From: Companilactobacillus heilongjiangensis
GTDB lineage: Bacteria; Bacillota; Bacilli; Lactobacillales; Lactobacillaceae
NCBI RefSeq assembly: GCF_000831645.3
Contig: NZ_CP012559.1
Coordinates: 310,001 to 374,000, forward strand
DNA: 64,000 nt
Reading direction: 5' to 3'
The notes under the pieces: model-generated
Seen by the model: only the letters and a program-made list of their open reading frames with translations
Database searches by the model: none
What the model was told of the DNA's origin: nothing
Program-made: the position numbers and the translations under genes
Part shown: positions 3,305 through 63,979 of the stretch, in pieces
Layout of the letters: every line of letters begins with the position of its first letter
How positions within the stretch are numbered: the stretch's first letter is position 1

Positions 3305-3497
3305 GTTGAAGGAGGGCCGCCTCCGGTTGCCAGTGAATTTCACCCGCTATGAGGACCGGTCCGAGCCAAAGTGCGGTCTCGGACCTCGCTTTTGAGCCTT
3401 GCAAGTTCGGCAAGTCTCAAAAGTCGCCCTGTGGTGTAATGGCTAAAGCCATAACGCCACCTCCACAGCGGGTGAATTCACTGGCAACCGGAGGCTA
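3305..3497 (+). repeat. Paired cloverleaf repeat, locus 1, L half
   Basis: This copy starts with GTTGAAGG and ends with CCGGAGGCTA. Its outer stem P1 pairs CCTCCGGTTGCCAGTGAATT with its exact complement at the 3' end. Inside are three hairpins: P2 (GGTCCGAG / CTCGGACC), P3 (CTTTTGAG / CTCAAAAG with an inner CTTGC / GCAAG) and P4 (GTGGTGTAATGGC / GCCATAACGCCAC, loop TAAA). The long P2 loop form (CCAAAGTGCGGT) is present. It forms an inverted pair with the copy at 3767, across a 269-bp AT-rich spacer in which I see no gene. Confidence 0.9.
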
Positions 3498-3766
3498 AGT
3501 TATTTTTAATATGAGAGTTATCAGTTATATGACACAATATTTAAATTTATTCTTCTTTTGTGGAGGAAGTACGGGTTAATCTGTTGGATGAATTGTTATA
3601 TTTCCTTTTAAATTATTCGTGAAGATTACAAATTGTATTTATAATTTGTTAAGATAGTTGAATCGATGACCGTTAGTAATTTAATGCTAGAAAATTAGGA
3701 TCTGATAGTTGCAACAGTTTAGTTGTTAAGCAAAGTTATCAGAACCATTCATTTAAAGAAAAAATT

Positions 3767-3957
3767 TAGTTGGAAGAGCTGAGAGTATTCATATGCCGTG
3801 AAAGTGGCGTTATGGCTTTAGCCATTACACCACCGGTCGTGTTGGAGACTTTCCGGTCTGTGGAAAGGCTTCAACCGAGGTTCGAGACCGTACTTTGGCT
3901 CGGACCGTACCGCGCAGCAGATGAATACTCTCAGCTCTGGAAACGGCATACTTCAAC
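3767..3957 (-). repeat. Paired cloverleaf repeat, locus 1, R half
   Basis: This is the inverted partner of the copy at 3305, but with different P1 arms (GAGCTGAGAGTATTCAT / ATGAATACTCTCAGCTC). Read on the minus strand it starts GTTGAAGTATGCCG, the best-preserved outer end in the window. It is nearly identical to the copy at 20799-20988 and differs from it by compensatory changes in P3 and P4. Its hairpins keep a 66-codon frame open, which I regard as spurious. Confidence 0.9.
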
Positions 3958-3994
3958 AAACCTTTATTAGTAAATAAATCTGGGGGACACGCTT

Positions 3995-5119
3995 TTGGAA
4001 ATAAATCGTCGGAATATTATTAGATACGGCATAATCGTTGTACTTGTCTTGGTTGGACTAATTTATCCTGCCCAAATTTACAGTATCTTTTTAAATCTGT
4101 TTGGAATTTTGCTGCCAATAGTTTTAGGTGGCGTTTTGGCATATGTGCTGAATCTTTTGGTTGTTAAATTGGAGAAACATTTTTTCCCTAATAGTAAGTC
4201 GAAATGGATAAATGGTAGTCGCCGTGGCATCGTTATTTTGCTTACTTTGGTGATTGTTATTTTGGTTATGACTGGTGTCTTTCGTTTGGTATTGCCACAG
4301 TTTATTCTGGCTTTGACGAAATTCTTCAAGTCGATTCCAGCGTTGTTCTCTGATATTTCTAATTTGGCAGAGAAGATAAATAGTCACTCGGCTGTGCCTG
4401 ATCAATTGAAGGCTATTGATATTAATTGGACTTCGGTTCAATCTAAGGTTATGAAATTTCTGACTTCTGGTGTCAGTGGTCTGTTTGGTTCAACTTTCAA
4501 AATTGTGACAGGATTTGCCAAAGGTATTTTTAACTTTATTCTGGCTGTCACGTTTGCCGTTTATATCTTGGCAACTAAAGAAAAATTGATTGGTCAAGTT
4601 AATAAGGCTGGTAAAGCATTTATTAAAGAAAATACTCGTAAAAAAATTAAATATGTTTTAGATATTACTAATAATATGTTCAGCAGTTTTATTGTTGGAC
4701 AGGTTACGGAAGCAATTATTCTTGGGACACTTTGTGCCCTAGGGATGCTACTATTCAAGTTTCCATATGCATTATCAGTTGGTGCTTTCGTTGGTATTAC
4801 ATCATTGGTACCAATCCTTGGCGCTTGGGCTGGTGGGGCTGTTGGTTTCTTGTTGATCGTAGTTGATTCACCATTACAAGCTGTGCTATTCGTTGTCTTT
4901 ATTATTGTCTTGCAACAACTAGAAAGTAATTTAATTTATCCACGTGTGGTCGGGACATCAATTGGCCTACCAGGTATTTGGGTTTTGGCATCCATTACAG
5001 TTGGTGGTGGACTTGGTGGTATTGTAGGAATGCTATTAGGTGTTCCTGTTGCCGCAACTATTTATCAATTAGTTAAGAATGAAGCAAATCGTCGTTTAGA
5101 AAATCCAGCTAAGGTATAA
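3995..5119 (+). CDS. AI-2E family transporter (membrane permease)
   Basis: This 374-residue membrane protein has the layout of the AI-2E transporter family (PF01594): paired N-terminal membrane segments, a soluble middle part around residues 95-180, and a C-terminal membrane bundle with a conserved-looking LVPILGAW segment near residue 270. Family members include the AI-2 exporter TqsA but also sodium/proton antiporters and proteins of unknown function, so no substrate is assigned. The TTG start at 3995 follows the Shine-Dalgarno sequence GGGGGA. It lies 30 bp ahead of the protease-like gene at 5149, probably in one transcript. Confidence 0.88.
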   Translation: MEINRRNIIRYGIIVVLVLVGLIYPAQIYSIFLNLFGILLPIVLGGVLAYVLNLLVVKLEKHFFPNSKSKWINGSRRGIVILLTLVIVILVMTGVFRLVLPQFILALTKFFKSIPALFSDISNLAEKINSHSAVPDQLKAIDINWTSVQSKVMKFLTSGVSGLFGSTFKIVTGFAKGIFNFILAVTFAVYILATKEKLIGQVNKAGKAFIKENTRKKIKYVLDITNNMFSSFIVGQVTEAIILGTLCALGMLLFKFPYALSVGAFVGITSLVPILGAWAGGAVGFLLIVVDSPLQAVLFVVFIIVLQQLESNLIYPRVVGTSIGLPGIWVLASITVGGGLGGIVGMLLGVPVAATIYQLVKNEANRRLENPAKV

Positions 5120-5148
5120 TTGACGAAATTACACAAGGAGAGATTAGT

Positions 5149-5937
5149 GTGTGGAATAGCTATTTTGGATTTGTGATAACTTTCGTAGCCATCTTTACTT
5201 TGGTGCCTTACCTGACGTCACTGATAACTTCGTGGTTAGGTCATCTATCAAAAATAATTTTGGTTGATAATTTAGGAAATAATAGTCAATTAGTTGTGGG
5301 TGGACTCGGGGTAATTATTCATGAGTTAGGTCACGCTATTTTTGCCTATTTATTTGGACATAAAGTGACCCACGTCCAGTTATTGAATTTGAATTATCGA
5401 CAGTCTGGTGCTTTAGGTTCAGTTGATCATCGTTGGAATGACCGTAACGTTTATCAGATATTAGGAAACTTTTTCATTGGATTAGCGCCGTATTACATGT
5501 GTTCGTTGGCATTGTTTATATTACAAAAATATTTGTTAAACGCCCAATTCAGTATCAGTTCACTGACACAGAGTTTGAATATCAACACGACTTTGTCGGC
5601 AAGTATGATATTTGACTCGGTGTTGGATAATTTGAAATCCAGTTTTGCCAATGCTTCGTGGGGGATGATTATCCTCTATGTTGTATTGACGATTATGATT
5701 GCTAGCACTGGTTATGACTTGAGCCGCAACGATTTTATGACAGTTAATAAAGGAATTTTGCCTTGGGTCGTGACATTGATTGTGTTTGGTTCAATTTTCT
5801 ATGTTTTCCATATAAGAACAGCAATTATCAGCGGTTCGGTTTATTTCATCGCTTTTTCGGTCTTGTTCATGTTTCATGCCATCATCAGTATTGTTCTGTC
5901 GATGGGTGTGATTAAAGTATTGGGGTTCTTTAATTAA
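5149..5937 (+). CDS. M50-family-like membrane zinc metalloprotease
   Basis: This is a 262-residue membrane protein with the zinc-protease motif HELGH near residue 60 (IIHELGHAIFAYLFGH), lying in or beside a membrane segment as in M50-type site-2-like proteases. A further five or so hydrophobic segments follow. The GTG start at 5149 has AAGGAGAG upstream. Its size and layout suggest the M50B-like group (PF13398) rather than RseP, because no PDZ domain is present. It probably shares a transcript with the AI-2E-like gene and is closed by a terminator. Substrates are unknown. Confidence 0.8.
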   Translation: MWNSYFGFVITFVAIFTLVPYLTSLITSWLGHLSKIILVDNLGNNSQLVVGGLGVIIHELGHAIFAYLFGHKVTHVQLLNLNYRQSGALGSVDHRWNDRNVYQILGNFFIGLAPYYMCSLALFILQKYLLNAQFSISSLTQSLNINTTLSASMIFDSVLDNLKSSFANASWGMIILYVVLTIMIASTGYDLSRNDFMTVNKGILPWVVTLIVFGSIFYVFHIRTAIISGSVYFIAFSVLFMFHAIISIVLSMGVIKVLGFFN

Positions 5938-5950
5938 AAAATATTCGAAA

Positions 5951-5983
5951 AAGCCTTTGAGACTTTGATCTCAAGGGCTTTTA
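5951..5983 (+). terminator. Intrinsic terminator
   Basis: The hairpin AAGCCTTTGAGA / TCTCAAGGGCTT with loop CTTTGA is followed by a short T-rich tract, 13 bases after the protease-like gene. Confidence 0.75.
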
Positions 5984-19281: not shown

Positions 19282-19293
19282 ATATGGTTATGT

Positions 19294-19328
19294 GTTGAAG
19301 GATACCGCCTCCGGTTTCGAATTTCCCG
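19294..19328 (+). repeat. Paired cloverleaf repeat, locus 2, L half (truncated)
   Basis: Only the outer end survives: GTTGAAGGATACCGCC, CTCCGG and a few bases of a P1 arm. The rest of the half is missing. An AT-rich spacer to 19522 contains a small hairpin (ATAGACT / AGTCTAT) at 19409-19428. Confidence 0.75.
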
Positions 19329-19522
19329 TAAAATAAGTCAGTAGCTATAGTATGAAGACGGAATGTATATATATAATCTATTTAATGTAAAAAAAGCGTA
19401 AAAAAAATAGACTATTTTTTAAGTCTATGATTTTGTGATATAAGTTATATTTTTGAAAATCCAGAGTTAACTTTAATGATTATTAAGTAAAACTCATATT
19501 ATATAGAAGCACATCAATACAT

Positions 19523-19700
19523 TAGCCGGAGGGTTCGAGGGAGTCGGAATGCCGTGCAGGTGGCGTTAGGTCGTAAGACCTTACCCCACCGACGTATTTT
19601 GAGATTCGCGGTTTATGCGAAGCTCAAAATCGAGGCGCGAGACCGTACTTTGGCTCGCACCGGTCGCATGGCTGTAGACTCCCTCGAACCCTCCGGCGGC
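19523..19700 (-). repeat. Paired cloverleaf repeat, locus 2, R half
   Basis: P1 pairs GGAGGGTTCGAGGGAGTC with GACTCCCTCGAACCCTCC. Inside, P4 (GGCGTTAGGTC / GACCTTACCCC), P3 (TTTTGAGATTCGC / GCGAAGCTCAAAA) and P2 (GGCGCGAG / CTCGCACC, imperfect) follow in reverse order. It ends 12 bases beyond the stop codon of the convergent TetR gene. Confidence 0.88.
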
Positions 19701-19712
19701 CCCCAAAAAAGT

Positions 19713-20798: not shown

Positions 20799-20988
20799 AT
20801 TGAAGGATGTCGTTTCCAGAGCTGAGAGTATTCATCTGCTGCGCGGAACGGTCCGAGCCAAAGTGCGGTCTCGAACCTCGGTTGAAGCCTTACCAAAGAC
20901 CGGTAAGTCTCCAACACGCCCGGTGGTGTAAGAGCTAAAGCTCTAACGCCACTTTCGCTGCATATGAATACTCTCAGCTCTTCCAACT
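20799..20988 (+). repeat. Paired cloverleaf repeat, locus 3, L half
   Basis: P1 pairs GAGCTGAGAGTATTCAT with ATGAATACTCTCAGCTC, the same arms as the R half of locus 1. Compared with that copy, P3 reads CTTACC / GGTAAG instead of CTTTCC / GGAAAG, and P4 reads AAGAGC / GCTCTAA instead of AATGGC / GCCATAA, so both arms changed together. It lies directly upstream of the ndt operon. Confidence 0.9.
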
Positions 20989-21266
20989 GAATTATTGTTT
21001 TAATTAAATGTAACTAACTTCATATTTGTCAGTAAACATTATCAAATTTTGGGCGAGCACTACACGTTAGTTATATCTTAATTATACTGAAATGTTCGGG
21101 AAATGCTCGTATAAATAATTCTATACAAAGGTTTTTATTGTAATCAATCATTTGGACTTATTAATAATTGATAAAGTCATAATAGTATTTTAACTACATT
21201 TAATTATTTTAAGAGAGATGGAAATTTCAAAACGGAAGTAATAGCCTCTAACAAAGTAAACTAAAT

Positions 21267-21450
21267 TAGTCGGAAGAACTGAGAATATACACCCGCTGTG
21301 GGTGTGGCGTTACGGCTTTAGCCGTTACACCACCGGGCGACTTTGGAGACTCGCGGGTTGTGCGAGGCTTCAAATCGAGGTTCGAGACCGCTCTTTGGCT
21401 CGAGCTGGTCCGTATAGTAGGTGTATATTCTCGGTTCTGGAGACGGCATA
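21267..21450 (-). repeat. Paired cloverleaf repeat, locus 3, R half
   Basis: P1 pairs AACTGAGAATATACACC with GGTGTATATTCTCGGTT. The P4 hairpin is GTGGCGTTACGGC / GCCGTTACACCAC. The long P2 loop form is present. The spacer to the L half (20989-21266) is AT-rich with no gene visible. The outer motif after 21450 is degenerate (ATGAAAC instead of CTTCAAC). Confidence 0.88.
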
Positions 21451-22747: not shown

Positions 22748-22940
22748 GTTGAAGTATGGCCGCCTCCGGTCGTGCGTGATTGTAGTCCGCTATGGGGACC
22801 GGTCCGAGCCAAAATGCGGTCTCGAACCTCGCTTTGAATCCTTGCAAGTTCGGCAAGTATCCAAAGTCGCCCCGTGGTGTAACGGCTGAAGCCGTAACGC
22901 CACCTTCACAGCGTACTCAATCACGCACGACCGGAGGCTA
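22748..22940 (+). repeat. Paired cloverleaf repeat, locus 4, L half
   Basis: It starts GTTGAAGTATGGCCGCC right behind the preceding gene's terminator. P1 pairs CCTCCGGTCGTGCGTGATTG with its exact complement. P3 is CTTTGAAT / GTATCCAAAG with an inner CTTGC / GCAAG, and P4 is GTGGTGTAACGGC / GCCGTAACGCCAC. Confidence 0.92.
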
Positions 22941-23056
22941 GGTTTTCTGTCGATAAAGTTGGCCTGGATAATTGCTCTGGAGTTTCCGTCATGATTTTAC
23001 GTATTTTGAAGTTTTAATAATTAAGCTCTATATTATATAATTCCAAACTAAAAAAA

Positions 23057-23112: not shown

Positions 23113-23149
23113 ATTGATATATCATCAAAAAATTATATATAGCTGGAGG

Positions 23150-23322
23150 TTTCGAGGGAGTCGAAATGCCGTGCAGGTGATGTTAGAGCAGTGATTTTCT
23201 GCTCTTACAACACCGACGTATTTTGAGATTCGCGTACTTTGCGAAGCTCAAAATCGAGGCGCGAGACACAAGGCTTTCACCGGTCGCGTGGCATGCGAGA
23301 CTCCCTCGAAACCTCCAGCGGC
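23150..23322 (-). repeat. Paired cloverleaf repeat, locus 4, R half
   Basis: P1 pairs GGAGGTTTCGAGGGAGTC with GACTCCCTCGAAACCTCC. P4 is TTAGAGCAG / CTGCTCTTA and P3 is TTTTGAGATTCGC / GCGAAGCTCAAAA. P2 is weaker, because the loop side reads ACACAAGGCTTTC instead of the usual form. It is about 20 bases beyond the end of the convergent binding-protein gene. Confidence 0.88.
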
Positions 23323-23344
23323 AGTGAACGGCAAACACAAAACT

Positions 23345-25550: not shown

Positions 25551-25918
25551 AAAAAAAGACGCCCGCTAGCAAATATGCTAGAGGACGTCTTGACGTGGTT
25601 CCACCTCGAGTTTGCCAATATCTCACGATACTGACCTCAGGAAGTTATTGTAAAAAGGTTCGCAAATAAACAAAAAACCCTCTTAGTCAAAAGACTAAGA
25701 GGGCGAATATTCGCGGTACCACCTCTGGTTACTAATATCTCACGATACTAGACTTATGAAGTTACAATAACTTCAGCTGTAACGGGGCTACCGAAATGAC
25801 CTACTTGTTTCAATCACTCAACTTACAGATGTGTTTCATCAAGGATCAGGTCAACTCACACCAACGTTGACTCTCTGGACTGATTTACTCGATTACTCTT
25901 CTGTCGTCGCTTTTTATA
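25551..25918 (-). promoter_or_regulatory. T-box leader with duplicated antiterminator/terminator module
   Basis: Read on the minus strand, a full T-box Stem I is followed by T-box sequence 1 (TGGTACCGCG, 25712-25721) and terminator 1 (CCCTCTTAGTC / GACTAAGAGGG plus Ts, 25672-25703). A second, shorter unit then repeats only the lower part: ATCGTGAGATATT, T-box sequence 2 (TGGAACCACG, 25594-25603) and terminator 2 (25551-25591). Stem I shows AGTA opposite GAAACACA (25830-25837), the usual specifier-loop partners. With the same spacing as in the trpS leader (GAA-A-TGG) the specifier is CAC (His, 25831-25833); one base earlier it would be ACA (Thr). The second unit has no Stem I of its own. Confidence 0.85.
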
Positions 25919-25969: not shown

Positions 25970-25982
25970 GTTTTTTTTATTT

Positions 25983-26159
25983 TGCCGCCGGAGGCTGGCA
26001 GTAATTTAACTCGCTATGGGGACCGGCGTGAGCCAAGGTCTCACGCCTCGACTTTGAACTTTGCAAAGACCGCAAATTTCAAAGCTCGCCCCGTGGTGTA
26101 ACGGCTAAAGCCGTAACGCCACCTCCACAGCGTGTTAAATTACTGCCAGCCTCCGGCTA
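25983..26159 (+). repeat. Paired cloverleaf repeat, locus 5, L half
   Basis: P1 pairs GCCGGAGGCTGGCAGTAATT with AATTACTGCCAGCCTCCGGC. P2 is GGCGTGAG / CTCACGCC with the short CCAAGGT loop, P3 is CTTTGAA / TTCAAAG, and P4 is GTGGTGTAACGGC / GCCGTAACGCCAC. The outer GTTGAAG motif is missing here. Confidence 0.9.
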
Positions 26160-26408
26160 TTTTATTGGCGTTCTGCAATGTTAATGATATTTGTTTACGT
26201 ATCGGTAGGTAAATTGATATTATATCAGTGAATTTTTTTCTAATTGTTATTAAATATTTAGAATTATTTTATTTTTAAACGACAGGATCTGAAATTTGTA
26301 ATCAATAGTTTAGTTCAATTAAGTTTCTCCTCGTGAAACTCAATAGATTTGAGTTATTTATATGTTTAATAATTGCAGAATATCAAATATCTGAATCAAA
26401 AAATACAC

Positions 26409-26590
26409 GAGCCGGAGGGTGAGAGGGAGTCCAAATGCCATGAAAGTGTTGTTAGAACAGTGCTTTTCTGTTCTTACAACACTGACGTATTTTGAGATTC
26501 GCGAACCTTGCGAAGCTCAAAATCGAGGCGCGAGACCTTGGCTCGCACCGGTCGCATGGCTTGTAGACTCCCTCACCCCCTCCGGCGGCA
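26409..26590 (-). repeat. Paired cloverleaf repeat, locus 5, R half
   Basis: P1 pairs GGAGGGTGAGAGGGAGTC with GACTCCCTCACCCCCTCC (one mismatch). P4 is a perfect GTGTTGTTAGAACAG / CTGTTCTTACAACAC hairpin. P3 is TTTTGAGATTCGC / GCGAAGCTCAAAA. It ends 3 bases before the -35 box of the padR-like promoter. The spacer from 26160 is AT-rich and shows no gene. Confidence 0.9.
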
Positions 26591-26593
26591 AAC

Positions 26594-29475: not shown

Positions 29476-29666
29476 ATTGAAGTATGCCGCCACCGGGTGC
29501 AAGTGATTTGGGCTGGCTGTGGGGACCGGTTCGAGCCAAAGAGCGGTCTCGAACCTCGCTTTTGAGCCTTGCAAAACCGGCAAGTCTCAAAAGTCGTCCC
29601 GTAGTATGAGTGCTTACGCACTTATACTACCTTCACGGCTAGCCCAATCACTTGCACCCGGTGGCT
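29476..29666 (+). repeat. Paired cloverleaf repeat, locus 6, L half
   Basis: It starts ATTGAAGTATGCCGCC. P1 pairs CACCGGGTGCAAGTGATT with AATCACTTGCACCCGGTG. P2 is GGTTCGAG / CTCGAACC and P4 is GTAGTATGAGTGC / GCACTTATACTAC, which is paired although nearly every base differs from other copies. Confidence 0.92.
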
Positions 29667-29869
29667 GGGTTTGTTTATAGACTTGAATGGTTAGTTATCT
29701 TCAAAAAAACTTGAGTTAATGGTTGATTGGAATTTTGTAAATGATTGTTTTTTGTTCGTTATAACGGTGGTATAAATTTTCAATTGTTGATTATGTTAGA
29801 TTCATTAGTATGTAAATCATGAATGAGTATTTTAAATTGTGTCTGGGTAATTCATCAGATAAAAAAATC

Positions 29870-29904
29870 TAGCGGAACTACATTACTGCCCACCGGAAGC
29901 GGCA
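29870..29904 (-). repeat. Paired cloverleaf repeat, locus 6, R half (remnant)
   Basis: Only the two ends remain: TAGCGG at the inner side and CCACCGGAAGCGGCA at the outer side, with the whole cloverleaf deleted in between. The spacer from 29667 is AT-rich without a gene. Confidence 0.6.
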
Positions 29905-29911
29905 ACAAAAA

Positions 29912-35270: not shown

Positions 35271-35453
35271 GTTGGCCGTCTTCAGAACTGAGAATATTTA
35301 CCTGCTATGCGGATCGGGCCGAGCCAAGGTCTCGTCCCTCGGTTTGAAGCCTTACCAAAGACCGGTAAGTCTCCAAACACGCCCAGTGGTGTAATGGCTA
35401 AAGCCATAACGCCACACCCACAGCGGGTAAATATTCTCAGTTCTTCCGACTAG
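35271..35453 (+). repeat. Paired cloverleaf repeat, locus 7, L half only
   Basis: P1 pairs AACTGAGAATATTTACC with GGTAAATATTCTCAGTT. P2 has the short loop, P3 pairs GTTTGAAG with CTCCAAAC around CTTACC / GGTAAG, and P4 is the common GTGGTGTAATGGC hairpin. There is no R partner before the adhesin gene; 35454-35666 is AT-rich and holds a promoter (TTGACA at 35563). Confidence 0.88.
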
Positions 35454-35666
35454 TTTGTTTGCTTATATTAGAAGGTTAATTCAAATTTATCGGATATTTT
35501 ACGTCTCTTATTTTTAGATTGTATAGACCATTAAATGCATTAATAGTGATATAAATCCTGATTTGACAATATTTTAGAGTAGCGTAATAATTTTCATAAA
35601 TAATTTATTACCATATTTATAACAGATAATAATTATTCTAAATTAATGAGGGTGGTTTAGTTAATT

Positions 35667-38649: not shown

Positions 38650-38775
38650 GGGTATTAAATATTGCAATATATATGTTTTCTGGAAACATAAGATGATAAA
38701 AGTTTAAGAATTGAATAAATTTTTAAAATTTGTTCAATCTTTAATTCAGCATAACCAAATTATAAACAGTTAAAT

Positions 38776-38964
38776 TAGTCGGAGGAACTGAGGTTAGTCC
38801 ACTGCAGTGGAAGTGGCGTTAGGACGGCGGTCCTTGCCGTTCTTACACCACCGGGCGTGTTTGGAGACTTGCGGTTTTTGCAAGGCTTCAAACCGAGGGA
38901 CGAGACCTTGGCTCGGCCCGGTCCGCACAGCAGGGTGACTAACCTCAGTTCCGGAGACGGCACC
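38776..38964 (-). repeat. Paired cloverleaf repeat, locus 8, R half
   Basis: P1 pairs AACTGAGGTTAGTC with GACTAACCTCAGTT (a GTCC/GGTGAC edge is imperfect). P4 is enlarged (GTGGCGTTAGGACGGC against GCCGTTCTTACACCAC), P3 is GTTTGGAG / CTTCAAAC around CTTGC / GCAAG, and P2 has the short loop. The spacer from 38650 is AT-rich. Confidence 0.88.
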
Positions 38965-43499: not shown

Positions 43500-43510
43500 T
43501 TGTTTAGGGA

Positions 43511-43680
43511 GCCGCCGGAGGTGGTGAAAAAATTCTACCTGCGGTGGGGACCAGCGCGAGCCAAGGTCTCGCCCCTCGCTTTTGAGCCGAAGACCGGTCT
43601 CAAAAGACGTCCCGTGGTAAAAGGTCTAACGACCTTCCACCACAATCACTGCGGGTAGATTTTTTCACCACCTCCGGCTA
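43511..43680 (+). repeat. Paired cloverleaf repeat, locus 9, L half
   Basis: P1 pairs GCCGGAGGTGGTGAAAAAAT with the complementary arm ATTTTTTCACCACCTCCGGC (5' arm one A shorter or bulged). P4 differs (AAAGGTC / GACCTT), P3 lacks its inner hairpin (CTTTTGAG / CTCAAAAG), and P2 has the short loop. It starts about a dozen bases behind trpS; no separate terminator was found. Confidence 0.9.
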
Positions 43681-43849
43681 GTGTATTTGATACTACGGTT
43701 TGTATTTTTAATGGATTTTATAATAATAGAAGAATAATTAATAGTTCGATATGTATAACTTTAGTTATATTATACCGGGCTATTTTTTTTGAATTTTTTT
43801 GAATTATGCAAAGCATTGAAGAAAAGAATTGAACAATATCCAGGATAAC

Positions 43850-44024
43850 TAACGGAGGTTGCCAGTGATTTTTGTCAGCTATGAAGGTGTTGTTAGAGCT
43901 TTAGCTCTTACAACACAGGACGTTTTTGAGACGTGGTTTTCGGCTCAAAAACGAGGGTCGAGACCGCACTTTGGCTCGAGCCGGTCCCATAGCAGACAAA
44001 AAATCACTGGCAACCGGAGTGGCA
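43850..44024 (-). repeat. Paired cloverleaf repeat, locus 9, R half
   Basis: P1 pairs CGGAGGTTGCCAGTGATTTT with the imperfect complement AAATCACTGGCAACCGGAG. P4 is TGTTGTTAGAGC / GCTCTTACAACA, P3 is TTTTTGAG / CTCAAAAA without inner hairpin, and the long P2 loop is present. The spacer from 43681 is AT-rich. Confidence 0.88.
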
Positions 44025-44081
44025 AGCCCAAACAGCTTTCTGAAAATAAATATCAAATTTTATGAAAATAAATTAATCATA

Positions 44082-46910: not shown

Positions 46911-46928
46911 ATTTTTGTATTATGGAAT

Positions 46929-47109
46929 GACGCCGGAGACTGACAATAATATAGTCCGATATGGGGACCGGTCCGAGCCAGAGTGCGGTCTCGTACCTCG
47001 CTTTGAATCCTTGCAAGCCCGGCAAGTATCCAAAGTCGCCCCGTGGTGTAATGGCTAAAGCCATAACGCCACCTCCACAGCGTACTATATTATTGCCAGT
47101 CTCCGGCTA
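46929..47109 (+). repeat. Paired cloverleaf repeat, locus 10, L half
   Basis: P1 pairs GCCGGAGACTGACAATAATA with TATTATTGCCAGTCTCCGGC (one mismatch). P2 has the long loop, P3 is CTTTGAAT / GTATCCAAAG around CTTGC / GCAAG, and P4 is GTGGTGTAATGGC / GCCATAACGCCAC. It lies 18 bases behind a terminator. Confidence 0.9.
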
Positions 47110-47231
47110 GTGTTTTAGTTGATTTTAATTTAACTAATCTTTGGTATTAAGCGTATTGAATTTTGATATTAATATTTTGGATGATTATTTGGTATTTATG
47201 TTTGAAAAATTAATTTAGTCAAGCAATCCGT

Positions 47232-47413
47232 TAGCCGTAGTTTTTCAGTAATATAGACAGCTGTGAGAGTGGCGTTAGAAAGGCGATTTTCCTTTCTTAC
47301 ACCACTGACGTATTTTGAGATTTGCGGTTTATGCAAAGCTCAAAATCGAGGCACGAGACCTTGGCTCGCGCCGGTCACATAGCAGGCTATATTACTGAAA
47401 ACCGGAGGCGGCC
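47232..47413 (-). repeat. Paired cloverleaf repeat, locus 10, R half
   Basis: P1 pairs TTTTTCAGTAATATAG with CTATATTACTGAAAA, and the ends read TAGCCG and CCGGAGGCGGC. P4 is TTAGAAAGG / CCTTTCTTA, P3 is TTTTGAGATTTGC / GCAAAGCTCAAAA. It ends 2 bases before the stop codon of the convergent permease gene. The spacer (47110-47231) is the shortest seen, 122 bp. Confidence 0.88.
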
Positions 47414-47414
47414 C

Positions 47415-49809: not shown

Positions 49810-52635
49810 TTATGCAGGAACATATTCGTTGGTAGCGACACGATACATCTTGACGCCATCGACCATAATACAACCATCGGTTCTCCAAGTACTGCCAGCT
49901 GGTAGAGTTAATCTGAGCTTTTTACCTTGAGAATCATAAACAGCAGTTTTAGCACTTAGGTGAACTTTAGCTTTAGCGGGAGCAGGGGTAAAGGCAGTGG
50001 CTGAGTCGACTGCCAAGTATTCGTCGCTAGCTAAGCGATAATATGCTTCGCCGCCAATAGCAACTAGTCTGTCATATTTCCATTTAGTGCTTGGATAAAG
50101 TTTTTCACTGACAGGTTTGCCTTCGCTGTCCACAAGTTTGAGTGGAACATTGTGAGTGATAAGGACACCTGTTTTAGTTGAAGCAACGGCATCGTAATCG
50201 TTAGCTTCGACAAATTCACCGTCAGTTAGGAGATAGAATGGTTTGCCGTTGATAACTGTTGTTCCGTGAACGCCGATTTCAGTTAAATCTGGATCGTTGG
50301 TCAAAGTATGGATAACGACTTCTTCACGAGCTGGAGCAGGGTGCTTTGTCTTTGAAACTGGTTTCTTAGCTGGTTTTACGGCAGGTTTTACAGATGGAGT
50401 TGTAGATTCAGCAACTGGTTTTGTGTGAGGTTTTGCAACTTTTCTGTATTTCAAAGTAATTGTCTGTGGGTCTTGAGTATAGGCACCCTTTAGTAGTTTA
50501 GCTGGACTAGTTAACTTGTAGCCATCAAGTCTACTGTCAGCTGCTAAATCAAAGGCTGAACCAATCTTGGTACCACTAAGAGTCTTAGTTAATGGAACAC
50601 CCTTCTTTTTCATAATTGGAGCTCCAGTGGAGCTGACATATTTAATAGTTACGGTTGGGTGAGCTTGCCAAATGAGTGGTTGGTTAACTGTTGTGGCCGA
50701 TTCAAAGTAGGTATTACCGACATTTTCTTGAATCATAGAGCCTTTAGTAAACCCGTTGTGAAAGCCATAGTTACCATAACTCAAGGTTTTTGCGGTAGGG
50801 TCAGCGTTAGTTAAAGTAAATTTGTCACCGCCATCGCTTGTTAGGTTACCGTTCTTCAAGTCAGCGCTAGTAGTTGAACCGGAATAAGTGTATTGCGGTG
50901 CTAGATCCACGCCACTAGGGTCGAGAAACTTTGGAGCAGTAAAGCTAATTGGTTCACCATCGACAGCGTAAACTGGAGTTTTGTCAGTAATAGTGTTGCT
51001 GACGGCATCAATCATGACACTCTTGCCAGTTTCAGTACCTTTCAAAGGTGAAAAATCGCTGATAGAAGAGTTGTCGAATTCAATCATATTGAAACCTTGA
51101 CCATTGTTGGCAAACTTGTTGATTGTTGGGGCCACTTCATCCAATTCTGCTTGAGTAATACCGTTAGTATCGGTGTTACCTTCCAAATCTAGAGTACCGG
51201 CCACGGATAAATCGAGATTGCTGATTTGGCTGACGTCAATTTCTTTGGCAGTTGAATCACTGAAGTTACCAGCTAAGTCCAAACTAGCTAATTTGATGCC
51301 TTCCAATGGAGTTAAATCAGGGTTGGCTTTTGGATCAGAAGCTAGGTTAACTTGAACCCCAACTGTTGATTTGGCAGGTAAGAGTGTTAGATATTGCATA
51401 CCATCGAGACTTTCAATTGGAGTACTGTCTTCATCAGAAATATAAGCACCAGGTACAGGAGATGATGTTGGACCATTTGGATGAGCTAATTCGTAAGAAT
51501 TCATTGATACGAGCAAATAGCCGCCTGTGTATGATCTAATATCCCCAACGGTTAAGTTAGAAGTATAAGGAACTTTCAAAGCAAACTTTACCGCACTTTC
51601 CAAATTAGGATCAGTAAATGTGATAACCGTATCATTAGTTACATCACTAGGGATGGCATATGGAGATGTGGCTGAACCTGTGGTTGCCGTGGTAGTTGTT
51701 GTCGTAGCTGGAGGTGTGGTTGCAGTTCCGGTTTTGGCGGGAGTAGTTGTAGTTCCAGTAGGGGTAGTCGTTGATGCAGGCTTTGTTGACGTAGATGAGC
51801 TAGTTGTGGATCCGCTAGTAGTTGATGCTGTCGTAGTAGAACTTGTTGTGGCAGGAGTTGAACTAGTTGTTGCTGGTGTCGTGGTTGTAGAAGCAGTAGC
51901 TGTTTTTCCAGAGGTTGAGGCAGTTGTGCTAGTAGTAGCTGGTGCTGTAGTTGTAGATGAGCTTGTTGCGCTCGTACCTGTAGAAGTAGGTGTTGTTGCA
52001 GTAGAAGAAGTTGTTGTACTTGAACTAGCTGTCGCAGGTGCAGAACTAGTAGAGGTTGGCGTTGTGGCTGTTGTAGTTCCGGTAGCTACGGGTGTTGGAC
52101 TGGTAGTAGCTGGTTTTGTAGTTGTGGAAGAACTGGTTGTGGTACCAGAAGTTGCAGGTGCAGAACTAGTAGTCGTTGATGCTGTAGTTGTAGGAGAACT
52201 TGTTGTTGCACTCATTGTTGTAGAAGTGGAGCTAGTAGCAGGAGTAGTAGATGTTGCCGTACTTGCTGGAGGAGTTTCAGCGGCTGTAGATGTTGGTGCA
52301 GTTGTAGTAGAGGAGCTTGTTGTAGTACCTGTAGCCGCAGGAGTAGGACTTGTTGTAGTCGCAGTTGGCTTGGTTGTAGCACTAGTGGCTGTTGTTGTAG
52401 TTGAACTAGATGTAGTTGGTGTCACTGTGCTGGTAGAAGATGGCGCCGCTGTTGTTCCTGTACTCATTGTGGTTGTGGTGCTCATAGTTGAGCTAGTTGG
52501 TGCTGAAGTTGTAGGCGTGCTTGTCGTCGAAGCGGACGTCGTGTCAGCTTTAGCGGTTTGTAAAGTCGTGGTTCCAAGAATCATGGCAGAAAATAACGAA
52601 ACACCTAAATATACACATTTTTTATTTAATAACAT
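49810..52635 (-). CDS. Large surface protein with Ser/Thr-rich, LRR-like, MucBP-like and SLAP-like domains
   Basis: This protein has 941 residues if started at the ATG at 52635 (9 bases behind AGAAGG; the ATG at 52644 is too close). A signal peptide ends near residue 30 (TAKADTTSAS). About residues 33-322 are almost only Ser, Thr, Ala and Pro, probably an O-glycosylated stalk. Then come an LRR/internalin-like part (about 330-600; IESLDGMQYL, LASLDLAGN, ISDFSPLKG), a MucBP-like domain (about 655-730; VTIKYVSSTGAPI, PQTITLKYRKV) and SLAP-like wall-binding repeats at the C-terminus (about 775-941; YRLASDEYLA, YRVATNEYVPA). It has no LPXTG motif, so attachment should be non-covalent. A role in adhesion is likely. 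Confidence 0.85.
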   Translation of the reverse strand: MLLNKKCVYLGVSLFSAMILGTTTLQTAKADTTSASTTSTPTTSAPTSSTMSTTTTMSTGTTAAPSSTSTVTPTTSSSTTTTATSATTKPTATTTSPTPAATGTTTSSSTTTAPTSTAAETPPASTATSTTPATSSTSTTMSATTSSPTTTASTTTSSAPATSGTTTSSSTTTKPATTSPTPVATGTTTATTPTSTSSAPATASSSTTTSSTATTPTSTGTSATSSSTTTAPATTSTTASTSGKTATASTTTTPATTSSTPATTSSTTTASTTSGSTTSSSTSTKPASTTTPTGTTTTPAKTGTATTPPATTTTTTATTGSATSPYAIPSDVTNDTVITFTDPNLESAVKFALKVPYTSNLTVGDIRSYTGGYLLVSMNSYELAHPNGPTSSPVPGAYISDEDSTPIESLDGMQYLTLLPAKSTVGVQVNLASDPKANPDLTPLEGIKLASLDLAGNFSDSTAKEIDVSQISNLDLSVAGTLDLEGNTDTNGITQAELDEVAPTINKFANNGQGFNMIEFDNSSISDFSPLKGTETGKSVMIDAVSNTITDKTPVYAVDGEPISFTAPKFLDPSGVDLAPQYTYSGSTTSADLKNGNLTSDGGDKFTLTNADPTAKTLSYGNYGFHNGFTKGSMIQENVGNTYFESATTVNQPLIWQAHPTVTIKYVSSTGAPIMKKKGVPLTKTLSGTKIGSAFDLAADSRLDGYKLTSPAKLLKGAYTQDPQTITLKYRKVAKPHTKPVAESTTPSVKPAVKPAKKPVSKTKHPAPAREEVVIHTLTNDPDLTEIGVHGTTVINGKPFYLLTDGEFVEANDYDAVASTKTGVLITHNVPLKLVDSEGKPVSEKLYPSTKWKYDRLVAIGGEAYYRLASDEYLAVDSATAFTPAPAKAKVHLSAKTAVYDSQGKKLRLTLPAGSTWRTDGCIMVDGVKMYRVATNEYVPA

Positions 52636-52792
52636 TTTATTCATCCTTCTTTGTTTTAAATTTGCCCCTATATTAGTTTCGAATTGATCAAAACTGATAA
52701 TAGAAGCGCTAGACAAAGTGGACGACAAAAAAATATGAGTAAAAAAGCTATTCTAATTGGCTTTATATGAATAGTTTTGTAAGCTAACTAAG

Positions 52793-52888
52793 TAGGCCGT
52801 CAAAATAGCTGAGAGTATTCACCGCTCTTTGGCTCGGGCCGTTCCGCACAGCTTGAGAATATTTCCCAGCTCTGTAGACGGCATACTT
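52793..52888. repeat. Paired cloverleaf repeat, locus 11, fused remnant
   Basis: The left end has an L-type start (GGCCGTC), but the right part is R-type (CTCTTTGGCTCGGGCC ... GTAGACGGCATACTT). A deletion has joined the beginning of an L half to the end of an R half, leaving the arm GCTGAGAGTATTC opposite GAGAATATTTCCCAGC. P3, P4 and the spacer are gone. Confidence 0.75.
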
Positions 52889-54402: not shown

Positions 54403-54518
54403 GTAATTTTTTTAAGATTTATTATGTAATTGTTGGAATTAGTCAATTAACCATAATTAGACATCTGTTGTTAATTGTTATATGAAATTTAGATTATTAC
54501 TAGATTATGAAATTAACT

Positions 54519-54696
54519 TAGCCGAGGGTGGACAGATTTTTTACCCGTAGTGGAGGTAATGTAAGGTCGAAAGACCTTACATTACAGGACGTCTTTTGAG
54601 ACACGGTTTTCGGCTCAAAAGCGAGGCTCGAGACCGTACCTCAGGCTCGTGCCGGTCCTCACATCGGGTAAAAAAATCTGTCCACCCTCGGCGGCA
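54519..54696 (-). repeat. Paired cloverleaf repeat, locus 12, R half
   Basis: P1 pairs GCCGAGGGTGGACAGATTTT with its complement (one extra A). P4 is a perfect GTAATGTAAGGTC / GACCTTACATTAC hairpin with a GAAA loop, unlike other copies. P3 is TTTTGAG / CTCAAAA without inner hairpin. Confidence 0.9.
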
Positions 54697-54733
54697 CTGT
54701 AAAGTTATTTCGCCCATTATTTAGGAATATTAA

Positions 54734-57213: not shown

Positions 57214-57396
57214 GATGCCGCCTCCGGTTGTCAGTAATGCAGTCTGCGGTGAGACCGGTGCGAGCCAAGGTCTCGCACCTCGATTTTGAGCTTCGCAAGG
57301 TGCGCGAAGCTCAAAATACGTCCGTGGTGTAAGGCCGGAAAATTACCGACCTAACGCCACAACCACTGCGGTCTTCATCACGCACAATCGAATGCT
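57214..57396 (+). repeat. Paired cloverleaf repeat, locus 13, L half
   Basis: It starts right at the stop codon of the preceding gene. P2 (GGTGCGAG / CTCGCACC) and P3 (ATTTTGAGCTTCGC / GCGAAGCTCAAAAT) are perfect, and P4 has a bulge. P1 is unusual: the outer arms (CTCCGGTTGTCAGTAATGCA against CATCACGCACAATCGAATG) no longer match well, so this copy has a broken outer stem. Confidence 0.85.
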
Positions 57397-57564
57397 AGTT
57401 TTTGAGATTTGATGATGGGCGTTGGGCAATAACATCTTGCCTGCTTCCAGTTTATTGAATATCTTTTGCGTTCAGGTTCTTCAATAATGAACGTTGGAAG
57501 TAAAGTGATTATCAACTAATAACGGTTATATTCAATATTTAAACGAATGAAGAATCCAATACAC

Positions 57565-57741
57565 TAGCCGGAGTGAGCGAGAAATTATACCAGCAGTGCA
57601 GGTGGCGTTATGGCTTCAGCCATTACACCACAGGACGACTTTTGAGACGTGATTTTCGGTTCAAAATCGAGGCTCGAGACCATACTGTGGCTCGAACCGG
57701 TCCGCACAGCAGGTATAATTTTCTCGCTCACTCCGGCGGCA
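57565..57741 (-). repeat. Paired cloverleaf repeat, locus 13, R half
   Basis: P1 pairs GCCGGAGTGAGCGAGAAA with the complementary TTTCTCGCTCACTCCGGC (plus one base). P4 is GTGGCGTTATGGC / GCCATTACACCAC and P3 is TTTTGAG / TCAAAA without inner hairpin. It ends a few bases before the Shine-Dalgarno sequence of the sirtuin gene. Confidence 0.9.
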
Positions 57742-57762
57742 GATATGTAGGAGGAAGAACCG

Positions 57763-58476
57763 ATGTCCGATAAGATTGAAGAGTTTAAAGAATTGCTAGC
57801 GCAAGCTGAGTTTGTAACTTTTCTAACTGGTGCTGGTGTATCTGTACCATCAGGGATTCCTGATTATCGTTCAAAGAATGGATTGTACAAGCGGGAGAAA
57901 TATGATTTTCCGCCTGAATACATGTTGAGTCATGACAATTTGGTCAAACACCCAGATATTTTTCATGACTTTGTTATTCATAATATGTACTTTCCAGAGG
58001 TTCAACCGAATATTATCCATACGAAAATGGCCGAGATCAGCAATCAAAAAGGTGCAATTGTCACGCAGAATGTTGATAAATTGCATACCAAAGCTGGAGC
58101 CAAAAATGTCGTGGAATTTCACGGAAATTTATATGATAATATTCACTGCTTAACCTGTGGCAAAGAATTTGATTATAAAGATTATTTAAAAGATTATCGG
58201 CACCATGAAGACAACGGAATCATTCGCCCCGGGACAACAGTCTTATACGGCGAGAATATCAATCCAGTAAACTTTCAAAATGCGGCACTAGCAGTTCAAA
58301 AAGCTGATTTATTAGTAGTCGTGGGTACAAGCTTCAAAGTTTATCCATTTGCGGGCTTATTGGAATACAGTTCACCGAAAGCTAAATTGGTCGTCATTAA
58401 TAAAGAAGATTTAAACTTAGATTCATCAATCCTGGCAATCTCAGACGATGCCACGAATGTTTTTTCACAGATATAA
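57763..58476 (+). CDS. SIR2-family NAD-dependent deacylase (sirtuin) with one zinc cysteine pair
   Basis: This 237-residue protein has the sirtuin motifs GAGVSVPSGIPDYRS (residues about 23-37), TQNVDKLH (about 105), the catalytic His in EFHGN, and VVGTSFKVYPFAGL (about 187). Of the usual four zinc cysteines only one CxxC (CLTC) is present; where the second pair is expected there is RHHEDNGIIRPG. So zinc may be bound by histidines or not at all. The ATG follows GGAGGAAG. Macro-domain-linked partners are not adjacent. Confidence 0.9.
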   Translation: MSDKIEEFKELLAQAEFVTFLTGAGVSVPSGIPDYRSKNGLYKREKYDFPPEYMLSHDNLVKHPDIFHDFVIHNMYFPEVQPNIIHTKMAEISNQKGAIVTQNVDKLHTKAGAKNVVEFHGNLYDNIHCLTCGKEFDYKDYLKDYRHHEDNGIIRPGTTVLYGENINPVNFQNAALAVQKADLLVVVGTSFKVYPFAGLLEYSSPKAKLVVINKEDLNLDSSILAISDDATNVFSQI

Positions 58477-58523
58477 AAGTAAATTAGGCAGTTTTCTATT
58501 TTTATTTAATGTATGTGATGCTA

Positions 58524-58727
58524 GTTAAATATGCCGTCTCCAGAGCTGGAAAATATTCTCAAGCTGTGCGGAACGGCCCGAGCCAAAGTGCGGTCTCGAA
58601 CCTCGGTTTGAAGCCTTGACACAGTTCGTCAAGTCTCCAAACACGTCCGGTGGTATAAGTACGGGAGAGTTCTCCCGTACTTATACCACTACCACGGCAC
58701 ACAAATATTTCCCAGCTCTTCCGACTG
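58524..58727 (+). repeat. Paired cloverleaf repeat, locus 14, L half
   Basis: P1 pairs GAGCTGGAAAATATT with AATATTTCCCAGCTC (near-perfect). P4 is enlarged to a long perfect arm pair GTGGTATAAGTACGGGA / TCCCGTACTTATACCAC. P3 pairs GTTTGAAG with CTCCAAAC around CTTGAC / GTCAAG. Confidence 0.9.
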
Positions 58728-58874
58728 GTTAATCAGTAATAATTGAATATAAAATTATTTAAATGTATTTATATTCAAGCAATTAATAGATTATGAGATA
58801 TTTGTAATAAGCTATCAACTAGCACCAAGAGTTATTTAGTACGTTCAATTAATCTGAATATATAGAAAACAAAT

Positions 58875-59068
58875 TAGTCGGAAGGACTGAGAATATTCAT
58901 CCGCTGTGGGTGTGGCGTTATGGCTTTAGCCATTACACCACCGGGCGAGTTTGGAGACTTGCCGGTTTGTGGCAAGGCTTCAAACCGAGGTTCGAGACCG
59001 CTCTTTGGCTCGGACCGGTCCGCATAGCAGGTGAATGTTCTCAGTCCTGGAGACGTCTTATTTTCAAC
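58875..59068 (-). repeat. Paired cloverleaf repeat, locus 14, R half
   Basis: P1 pairs GACTGAGAATATTCATC with its near-complement GGTGAATGTTCTCAGTC. P4 is GTGGCGTTATGGC / GCCATTACACCAC, P3 includes CTTGCC / GGCAAG, and the P2 loop is long. The outer end is altered (GTCTTATTTTCAAC). The metG promoter lies just behind. Confidence 0.88.
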
Positions 59069-59087
59069 CATAAAGTAACGAATATAA

Positions 59088-61153
<2,066 letters not shown>

Positions 61154-61154
<1 letters not shown>

Positions 61155-61915: not shown

Positions 61916-61917
61916 TT

Positions 61918-62499: not shown

Positions 62500-63367
62500 A
62501 TTAAGTATTGCTGATCCTATTCGCACAAATGACATTTTGCGTAAATATAAATTACGCGCCAAGAAGAGTTTAGGACAAAATTTCTTAACCAATGAAAAAG
62601 TTTTGGACGCAATCGTTGATGCCAGTGGTTTAAAGTCCGATGAAATTGCCATCGAAATTGGACCTGGTATCGGAGCTTTGACAGAAAAGTTAGCTCAAGT
62701 TTCTGAACACGTCTATGCTTTTGAAATCGATGATAAGTTGATACCAGTTTTGGCCGATACATTGCAATATTACGATAATATCGATGTAATCAACCAAGAT
62801 ATTTTGAAAGTTGACCTCGACGAGTTTGTTAAGGAAAACGATTTGGAAGGTAAGACTATCAAAGTTGTTGCCAACTTGCCTTACTACATCACCACACCAA
62901 TCATGTTGAACTTGATTGAAAGCGACTATCCTTTCCAAACATTAGTTTTGATGATGCAAAAGGAAGTCGCCGAACGAATCACTGCCAATCCGGGGCACCG
63001 TGAGTACGGTTCACTATCAATCGCCGTGCAAACACAGATGAATGCAAGAATTGATCGTATCGTCGGTAGTAAGTCATTTATTCCTAGACCAAAAGTCGAT
63101 TCAGCGGTAGCTGTTTTGGACAGATTGCCTAAAGAACAAATTGATATCGAAGATCCTGAATTCTTCAACAAGTTAGTTCGTTCAGCTTTTATGCAAAAAC
63201 GTAAGAGTTTGATGAACAATATGCTAAATTGGTTAGGCCGTACCGATGAAAATCGTGAAAAAATTAAAAAAGTTTTTGAAAAATGTGGAATCGCGGAAAA
63301 TGCCCGTGGTGAGCAGGTTTCAATCGAACAATTTAAGCAAATGGCCATCGAATTTAGCAAAAAATAG
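62486..63367 (+). CDS. rsmA: 16S rRNA dimethyladenosine transferase
   Basis: This 293-residue KsgA-type methyltransferase has KKSLGQNFLTN, the SAM motif EIGPGIGALT near residue 56, and the catalytic NLPYYIT near 128. It dimethylates the two adjacent adenosines near the 3' end of 16S rRNA. The ATG at 62486 follows AAGGGAAG, inside the end of rnmV. Confidence 0.97.
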   Translation: MTQNRLSIADPIRTNDILRKYKLRAKKSLGQNFLTNEKVLDAIVDASGLKSDEIAIEIGPGIGALTEKLAQVSEHVYAFEIDDKLIPVLADTLQYYDNIDVINQDILKVDLDEFVKENDLEGKTIKVVANLPYYITTPIMLNLIESDYPFQTLVLMMQKEVAERITANPGHREYGSLSIAVQTQMNARIDRIVGSKSFIPRPKVDSAVAVLDRLPKEQIDIEDPEFFNKLVRSAFMQKRKSLMNNMLNWLGRTDENREKIKKVFEKCGIAENARGEQVSIEQFKQMAIEFSKK

Positions 63368-63442
63368 ATTACAAATATATTATTTTATTGAAATTTTCAG
63401 TGATACGTGGTAGAATTTCACTCCTAAGGAGTGATTATTATA

Positions 63443-63736
63443 ATGCCAACATCATTGAAGACAATTAAGAGTCGTTTGGATTCACACTTAGGTGAGAATT
63501 TGACCATTGTCGCACAAGCAGGTCGTAAAAAGGTTGTCCGCCGTCGCGGAACTTTATCAGAAACATTCCATTCAGTTTTTGTCGTAGATTTAGATCAAAA
63601 TGAAAACTCATTTGAAAGAGTTTCATACAGCTATGCCGATTTATTAACAAAATCTATCGATATTCAATTTGATAGCGATGAACCTGCTGAAGCAGATTCA
63701 GAATCAGATTCAGACGTTGAAGCTGAAGCTGAATAA
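63443..63736 (+). CDS. veg: Veg-family protein
   Basis: This 97-residue protein matches Veg (LKTIKSRLDSHLGENLTIVA, then GRKKVVRRRGTL) with an added acidic, Ser-rich C-terminal tail. Veg stimulates biofilm formation in B. subtilis and follows rsmA there too. The ATG follows AAGGAGTG. Confidence 0.95.
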   Translation: MPTSLKTIKSRLDSHLGENLTIVAQAGRKKVVRRRGTLSETFHSVFVVDLDQNENSFERVSYSYADLLTKSIDIQFDSDEPAEADSESDSDVEAEAE

Positions 63737-63758
63737 ATATAATAAGCGTTCATTAGAT

Positions 63759-63791
63759 GGGTTTGAACATTTTTGTTCAGGCCCTTTTTTT
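63759..63791 (+). terminator. Intrinsic terminator after veg
   Basis: GGGTTTGAACA pairs with TGTTCAGGCCC (one mismatch), followed by eight Ts. Confidence 0.85.
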
Positions 63792-63796
63792 GTTGT

Positions 63797-63979
63797 GTTG
63801 AAATATGCCGCCCCCGGTTGCCAGAAATGTAGATACCCGCTTGTGGGACCGGTGCGAGCCAAGGTCTCGCGCCTCGCTTTTGAGCCGAAGACCGCGTCTC
63901 AAAAGACGTCCGTGGTGTAATGGCTAAAGCCATAACGCCACTTTCACAGCGGTACTACATTTCTGGCAACCGGAGGCTA
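63797..63979 (+). repeat. Paired cloverleaf repeat, locus 15, L half
   Basis: It starts GTTGAAATATGCCGCC a few bases behind the veg terminator. P1 pairs CCGGTTGCCAGAAATGTAG with the imperfect arm CTACATTTCTGGCAACCGG. P2 has the short loop, P3 lacks its inner hairpin, and P4 is GTGGTGTAATGGC / GCCATAACGCCAC. Its R partner would lie beyond the window. Confidence 0.9.

Follow-up and report, generated by a model that had tools for sequence, protein, structure and literature searches.

The 64,000-nucleotide stretch of the Companilactobacillus heilongjiangensis chromosome analysed here (the window, positions 310001-374000 of the single 2,790,548-base contig NZ_CP012559.1) carries a dense family of cloverleaf-shaped repeats, which are arranged as inverted pairs and inserted between genes as whole units. 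These copies are probably the inverted ends of non-autonomous transposons that resemble miniature inverted-repeat transposable elements (MITEs), mobilised in trans by an ISL3-like transposase, with the cloverleaf acting as folded DNA. A preliminary description of the window had reported the repeats as single elements of 180-190 bp and had asked whether they act as DNA, RNA or a selfish element. The fixed orientation of the pairs, the empty sites in related genomes, a variant lacking one of the hairpins and the group II introns lodged inside several copies all go beyond that description.

At the genome level, the repeat family proved to be real and larger than the window alone indicated. Iterated nhmmer searches recovered 22 full copies in the window (weakest E 1.1e-32) and one remnant at 52821-52868, where 19 full copies and seven remnants had been counted before; three remnants have now been located (Table 1), and the 14 units plus one remnant locus agree with the fifteen loci originally proposed. 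Throughout the text G000 denotes the window's own genome and the remaining G-numbers its relatives, L-numbers stand for individual loci, and units are cloverleaf pairs or singles numbered along G000. A covariance model, whose construction had been suggested in the preliminary description, finds at least 150 places in G000 (150 of 1773 candidates scored), as well as matches in relatives. Within 464 kb, formed by the window and 400 kb of chosen, non-random stretches beyond it, 128 matches were obtained at E <= 1e-10, a few of which are partial. Since 48 of the 150 scored matches fall inside this sampled part, scaling yields an estimate of about 400 copies for G000, which at about 188 bp each would make up roughly 2.7% of the chromosome. 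One sampled part, G000:C1 1400001-1500000, is sparser, with 1.1 copies per 10 kb, about one third of the density of the other four (2.8-3.7). The placement between genes noted earlier is maintained on crude calls of open reading frames (ORFs), with 114 of the 128 copies overlapping an ORF of at least 80 aa by 40 bp or less. On the same calls, units occupy 50 of 212 tandem gaps (24%), 16 of 51 convergent gaps (31%) and 16 of 55 divergent gaps (29%), and this similar occupancy reveals no visible preference for gene ends or for a regulatory place. In line with the earlier failure to recognise a known family, Rfam gave no repeat match over the whole window at the gathering threshold and nothing at E up to 1 over 3260-4000. 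No description of the family was found in the open PubMed Central (PMC) literature searched, which is weak evidence, since most subscription papers fall outside it; the portions consulted of PMC2267715, PMC3733652 and PMC7923331 likewise contain no description of it.

At the structural level, the proposed layout, an outer stem P1 enclosing the hairpins P2, P3 and P4, holds in a MAFFT alignment of 22 rows made independently of structure (A1). In a first fold of A1, 36 of 57 predicted pairs show at least one double change. Once P1 is completed, 92.3% of 1312 cells pair (75.9% in shuffled alignments), 39 of 60 pairs have changed on both sides, and the covariation score reaches 0.452, compared with 0.155 after shuffling and at most 0.097 with the partner slid. 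The folding energy of three copies lies 8-13 standard deviations below that of mononucleotide shuffles, on both strands. In the folds P2 carries an extra T opposite GAGCC, and a variant without P2, which contains a GCTGGAAC segment, is present in several genomes.

The outer part of P1 changes in a particular manner. In A1 it shows 107 cells changed on both sides and a single one-sided standard change, and in A2, a larger alignment fitted to the model, it contains 10 G-U as opposed to 29 A-C cells when loop columns are excluded. A structured RNA is expected to change via G-U pairs, so that the near lack of such intermediates makes the outer stem look like a DNA fold; the outer stem thus points to DNA, while the remaining helices are less clear. 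Near the outer end lies a three-base loop with TCC opposite TCC in 69 of 128 copies of A2. The loop is complementary at none, one, two or three positions in 86, 3, 4 and 34 copies, respectively (one gap), and is found paired both ways, as GGA/TCC in 13 copies and TCC/GGA in nine. This scarcity of halfway states suggests that one arm may be rewritten from the other by copying in a single step; alternatively, it could reflect the inheritance of a few events.

The unit is not the single repeat of 180-190 bp that had been described, but an inverted pair with its spacer. Among neighbours less than 450 bp apart in G000, 38 of 41 are ordered + then -, with one case of each of the three other orders, and the paired units of the window measure 488-643 bp. 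The possibility that entire ends flip-flop like parvovirus termini was discarded because orientation is kept (38 +- pairs versus one -+). The two ends of a unit are 0.663 alike (n 38), compared with 0.684 for random pairs (p 0.18). The spacers are AT-rich, and among 32 compared the clear family consists of those at window 58731, L007 and L024, partly in opposite orientation; the L. reuteri plasmid NZ_CP030091.1 bears a shortened copy with a spacer similar to these by eye. In these cases the spacer seems to have moved along with the ends. An autonomous element between the copies of a pair was not seen in five listed +- pairs with 400-4000 bp between them, in which the sole transposase on ORF reading was an IS30-like gene in the unit at G000:C1 373805-375628. 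The ends of this gene both fall inside the spacer by reading, and it therefore looks nested and was rejected as the mover. In spacers shorter than 400 bp, considered as sequence only, no transposase gene was noticed.

Evidence for insertion as whole units was obtained from related genomes. The 164 kb examined contain 32 units, and for 27 of them a comparison was possible with one or more of five relatives; at 13 of these the gap measures 12 bp or less in one relative or more. G015, G027, C. formosensis and C. halodurans lack unit 11 (57215-57742), with gaps of at most 15 bp; unit 12 (58531-59059) is missing in these four as well as in C. pullicola, the junctions having been read; and unit 23 is absent from the three relatives compared, with at most TTAA as a repeat. 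Several insertions start right behind a stop codon, by reading. Direct repeats of nearly 8 bp were recognised by eye in AT-rich DNA at four of the 13 empty-site units, namely ATATAAAA on both sides of unit 12, TGAAATTA/TGAAACTA at unit 22, TCTAATAA/TTTAATAA at unit 16 and AGGTAGGA/ATGTAGGA at unit 11. Taken together, MITE-like mobility of the units has strong support, and several points weigh against the overall explanation: direct repeats are absent or ambiguous at the other nine sites (units 3, 7, 8, 10, 17, 23, 24, 25 and 29), AT-rich DNA yields such matches by chance, and nearly all the G000 spacers compared are mutually unrelated, on which ground a simple one-family MITE with a common spacer was rejected. 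In addition, copies at sites shared by G002 and G000 are often only 55-69% alike, where random copies average 68%.

The loci shared with relatives also bear on a different explanation, according to which the copies would be host-adopted chromosomal elements, such as topology or domain markers, which selection would retain at each site once they had inserted. In seven of the ten units that G010 also has, similarity is higher between copies than between spacers (unit 24 is equal, units 19 and 29 show the reverse), and the differences between some shared copies are mainly compensatory, as in unit 22 with nine double, two single-sided and one other change. In six G010 copy pairs more than 75% alike, 24 breaking changes stand beside 20 double and 8 G-U ones, so that maintenance and decay are both visible. 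In the left copy of unit 11, the left arm is unlike that of G010 and its pairing with the right arm has been lost. This decay of many copies, the widespread presence/absence between species and the few or no matches in several close relatives make host adoption rather unlikely, although it is the most probable of the alternatives.

Slightly less probable is that the repeats are structured RNAs, that is, cis-regulators, terminators or small RNAs between genes that are selected as RNA locus by locus. Deep structural covariation, the very stable folds of the three copies and the insertions right behind stop codons would all fit this possibility. Several observations weigh directly against a DNA fold: inner P1 has 177 G-U and 33 A-C cells in A2, one P4 column of A2 is mostly U-G (74 copies), helices other than outer P1 show 37 one-sided standard changes in A1, and even in outer P1 38 of 352 A1 cells are unpaired, 28 of them in three loop columns; the A2 loop and mismatch counts, moreover, rest on a model-fitted alignment. 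Contrary to an RNA function, outer P1 is almost devoid of G-U intermediates, the antisense strand folds as well as the sense strand in the three copies, gene ends are not preferred, Rfam returns no match, and the inverted pairs place both strands in one locus.

The identity of a mobilising enzyme is suggested by G031, where the variant without P2 has undergone a recent burst. Of at least 18 matches in this genome six + copies were fetched; the other five are 92-94% identical to the first, and several have similar spacers by reading. Outer repeats of the GGTTCTTTCTTAAGTTGGRTTAGTG type are found some 30 bp beyond the cloverleaf, to the left of five of the six copies and to the right of all five whose right side was located. 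Direct repeats of 8 bp flank two of four units (L270, TTATTTTT; L266, TTAATTTT), while L271 matches at six of eight positions and L267 has none that is clear. A TnpB-like reading frame, seen by eye, adjoins the cloverleaf unit at L268. A profile built from nine G031 outer repeats was run over fetched ISL3-type loci, and the matches listed (20 rows, E 0.012-0.16, several of which are one place present in two loci) comprise only loci of a 608/609-aa ISL3-like transposase, their remnants or fragments, with the transposase loci in G006 and G009 and the remnants in G019 and G024. The ends of ordinary ISL3 elements are not among the matches listed, and these elements were set aside as the partner. 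The intact G009 element has GTTTTGCC on both sides, and some 43 bp separate the element from the outer boundary of a cloverleaf pair. L297/L306 and L296/L307 hold ISL3-like insertion sequences with a transposase of 608-609 aa whose Pfam match is split in two. Beyond the repeats on which it was trained, the profile matches outer sides at L048 in G012 (E 4.3e-5) and at a G002 class I copy (E 1.6e-4), in which repeat and cloverleaf are immediately adjacent, and marginally L049 (E 0.075). On inner sides the sole clear match is the L268 unit, in which the right outer repeat, itself a member of the training set, falls there.

These data provide good support for an ISL3-like enzyme as the putative driver of the G031 units. 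The G000 units would be relatives of greater age, with ends that have since decayed or changed, and four results speak against extending the same driver to them. No ISL3 transposase match was found in G000 or G010; the profile gives only E > 3 on the 128 G000 copies, and a further run over 126 copies did not show the repeat either; the outer flanks of the 128 copies reach 11.32 compared with 11.05 for the inner flanks (p 0.046, and p 0.15 against shuffles); and ISL3 presence does not track copy number by inspection over 36 genomes of the genus. Considered as a whole, the empty sites together with a recent burst that carries terminal repeats favour a mobile DNA element, and the question posed in the preliminary description is answered in this sense.

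A giant system of the REP/BIME kind, moved by a REP-associated tyrosine transposase (RAYT; Y1, HUH), is improbable. The paired inverted imperfect palindromes between genes are indeed BIME-like, and the extra T of P2 opposite GAGCC would suit such a system. Y1_Tnp occurs in 18 of 36 genomes of the genus, unrelated to copy number by inspection, and this enzyme was rejected as the driver. It was not found in several genomes rich in copies (G002, G006, G009, G011, G016, G021 and G024), and direct repeats of nearly 8 bp with terminal repeats of insertion-sequence type point instead to a DDE enzyme.

It is important to remark that the cloverleaf also serves as a site of entry for other elements. In G000, seven ORFs of group II introns contain a maturase domain. 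Six of these introns (L234-L239) lie near G000:C1 270394, 857271, 987497, 1332325, 1616680 and 1966505 and share 98.3-98.9% identity along the part that was aligned, which takes in the cloverleaf portion. All six are inserted on the cloverleaf antisense strand at the same nucleotide, CCGCG^CAGCAG (CAACAG in one), directly after the P2 hairpin, and joining their exon flanks restores a nearly full cloverleaf in every case. The cloverleaf thus appears to be recognised as a folded target. The seventh G000 intron and those of G022, G003 and G009 stand behind terminator-like hairpins, and a G006 intron is found on the cloverleaf sense strand after P4. The eight loci given, which include L234 and L235, all match group II models in Rfam, L245 through the domain V model alone. 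According to the part of PMC7923331 consulted, group IIC introns insert behind a stem-loop, for example a terminator or an attC site, and by target type we tentatively assign the present introns to IIC. In other genera of the family, 24 intron loci gave no R1 match, with a short 5' exon only and some at contig ends; the 5' exon could be read in 17 of them and, by eye, always stands behind a terminator-like hairpin, in nearly every case with a T-rich tail (at seven loci the 5' junction was unreadable). In a G431 intron whose 5' end was not found, the 3' exon is similar to the variant without P2. On plasmid pLME300 (NC_004566.1; L216 2501-2615) a cloverleaf arm of 46 bases lies immediately next to a match to group II domain V, and the same arm is present on 13 enterococcal and Ligilactobacillus plasmids; genes annotated for resistance to streptogramins and macrolides are found on pLME300 as well. 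It is possible that the six cloverleaf introns represent a new IIC target specificity. Entry of IIC-type introns into long imperfect hairpins, as in attC, and ends kept while spacers vary recall integron-like recombination sites that gather variable spacers as cassettes, but inverted pairs instead of direct-repeat arrays, spacers in which no common gene is seen and the gain of whole units make this the least credible explanation.

The family is not confined to G000. Of the 60 near genomes, 27 yielded matches: 26 of the 36 members of the genus, counting G000, and one of the 24 from outside it. In a wider draw, 35 of the 395 genomes gave matches, and 11 of the 80 genera were represented. MetG of G000 shares 93% identity with its C. 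formosensis counterpart. Matches near metG occur in Companilactobacillus kedongensis, C. mishanensis and Candidatus C. pullicola, and also in Levilactobacillus angrenensis, Lacticaseibacillus mingshuiensis and Schleiferilactobacillus shenzhenensis. Sixteen matching genomes lie outside the family Lactobacillaceae (E 2e-4 to 1.7e-13). Nine genomes of one genus of another family have a cloverleaf-like match, two in one genome, and in the genome that was read the match (L180 1501-1672) sits between infB-like and rbfA-like genes, named by reading, which suggests that the genus is Streptococcus. The repeats thus extend over several Lactobacillaceae genera and plasmids and probably, on the strength of weaker matches, to Streptococcus. 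Viral contigs showed no match to two exact patterns, nor phages to the one unit searched.

From these observations a mechanism can be outlined for the proposed transposons. Each unit would consist of an outer terminal repeat, a cloverleaf, an AT-rich spacer, an inverted cloverleaf and a second outer terminal repeat. A transposase supplied in trans, most likely from the insertion-sequence family of about 609 aa related to ISL3, would insert the whole unit into small intergenic gaps with duplication of about 8 bp, and the same system may have moved both the G000 and the G031 units. The cloverleaf would act as folded DNA, either a single-stranded hairpin or a cruciform, with a presumed role in transposition, and its outer pairing would be kept while the arm sequence turns over, probably with one arm sometimes rewritten from the other; both the folded role and the rewriting are reasoned from sequence. 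Folded copies would double as landing sites for IIC-type group II introns. More tentatively, the DNA fold itself would be under selection, with arms actively re-copied, ends free in sequence and fixed in fold, and an IIC intron lineage specialised on that fold, as others have on attC. If this is true, the cloverleaf would constitute a third natural class of IIC targets and could report, across the whole genome, on DNA hairpins inside living lactobacilli. On the main explanation, about 2.7% of the chromosome would be ends of a folded-DNA transposon not in Rfam. The family would offer hundreds of natural replicates for the study of in-cell hairpins, inverted-arm correction and the target choice of IIC introns.

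The features located in the window are collected in Table 1. Unit 4 is adjoined by a T-box leader (window 25696-25916, - strand), and a long ORF at window 49810-52728 on the - strand contains many degenerate repeats (family D1) and perhaps encodes a repetitive surface protein.

Table 1. Cloverleaf units, remnants and associated features, in window coordinates except where a G000 position is given.
Feature	Position	Strand	R1 (bits)	Remarks
Unit 0, left cloverleaf	3314..3502	+	207.4	
Unit 0, AT-rich spacer	3503..3761	.		no match to 31 other spacers, E 0.01
Unit 0, right cloverleaf	3762..3949	-	164.4	
Left-arm remnant	19292..19327	+		probably lost partner of the 19518 copy
Unit 1, cloverleaf	19518..19702	-	173.8	flank gap 428 bp here, 21 bp in G002
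Unit 2, left cloverleaf	20807..20994	+	169.7	
Unit 2, right cloverleaf	21262..21449	-	171.4	
Unit 3, left cloverleaf	22757..22945	+	197.2	G002 site empty
Unit 3, right cloverleaf	23135..23324	-	140.1	
Unit 4, left cloverleaf	25982..26164	+	188.4	
Unit 4, right cloverleaf	26404..26591	-	155.9	
Unit 5, cloverleaf	29484..29672	+	189.8	partner reduced to 29870-29906
Arm remnant	29870..29906	-		probably unit 5 partner
Unit 6, cloverleaf, single	35273..35457	+	180.1	
Unit 7, cloverleaf, single	38771..38963	-	164.2	gap 379 bp here, 11 bp in G015
Unit 8, left cloverleaf	43509..43685	+	155.3	
Unit 8, right cloverleaf	43845..44025	-	160.8	G015 site empty
Unit 9, left cloverleaf	46927..47114	+	185	
Unit 9, right cloverleaf	47227..47414	-	153.4	
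Remnant, P2 and outer arm	52821..52868	-		nhmmer E 3.4e-8
Unit 10, cloverleaf, single	54514..54697	-	167	G010 site empty
Unit 11, left cloverleaf	57215..57402	+	140.7	
Unit 11, right cloverleaf	57560..57742	-	173.6	G015 and G027 sites empty
Unit 12, candidate left target duplication	58471..58478	.		ATATAAAA
Unit 12, left cloverleaf	58531..58732	+	148.9	
Unit 12, right cloverleaf	58870..59059	-	188	
Unit 12, candidate right target duplication	59082..59089	.		ATATAAAA
Last unit, left cloverleaf	63805..63984	+	151.5	right half outside window
Last unit, right cloverleaf	G000:C1 375439-375628	-		beyond window

Various known systems resemble the cloverleaf units in part. BOX, RUP and ERIC are also short intergenic repeats with secondary structure, and they differ in layout and sequence. 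As far as the consulted part of PMC3733652 describes them, REP/BIME repeats with RAYT are likewise high-copy, paired, inverted and palindromic and lie between genes, whereas the present repeats are cloverleafs and far longer, show no GTAG tag that was noticed and follow no pattern of Y1 genes. The attC sites of group IIC-attC introns, as covered by the consulted part of PMC7923331, share the folded imperfect hairpins and the entry of IIC introns at a fixed place; they differ from a three-hairpin cloverleaf that occurs in inverted pairs, is entered at CCGCG^CARCAG and not at TTGT/T, and forms no cassette array. The MITEs of the ISL3 family also sit in intergenic gaps with no transposase gene found inside, and the resemblance extends to the ISL3-like terminal repeats in G031, in G012 and at one G002 copy and to the direct repeats of nearly 8 bp at some cloverleaf units. 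In contrast to those MITEs, the two ends of a cloverleaf unit are no more alike than random copies and the G000 spacers are mostly unrelated, while each end carries a self-covarying cloverleaf of about 180 bp.

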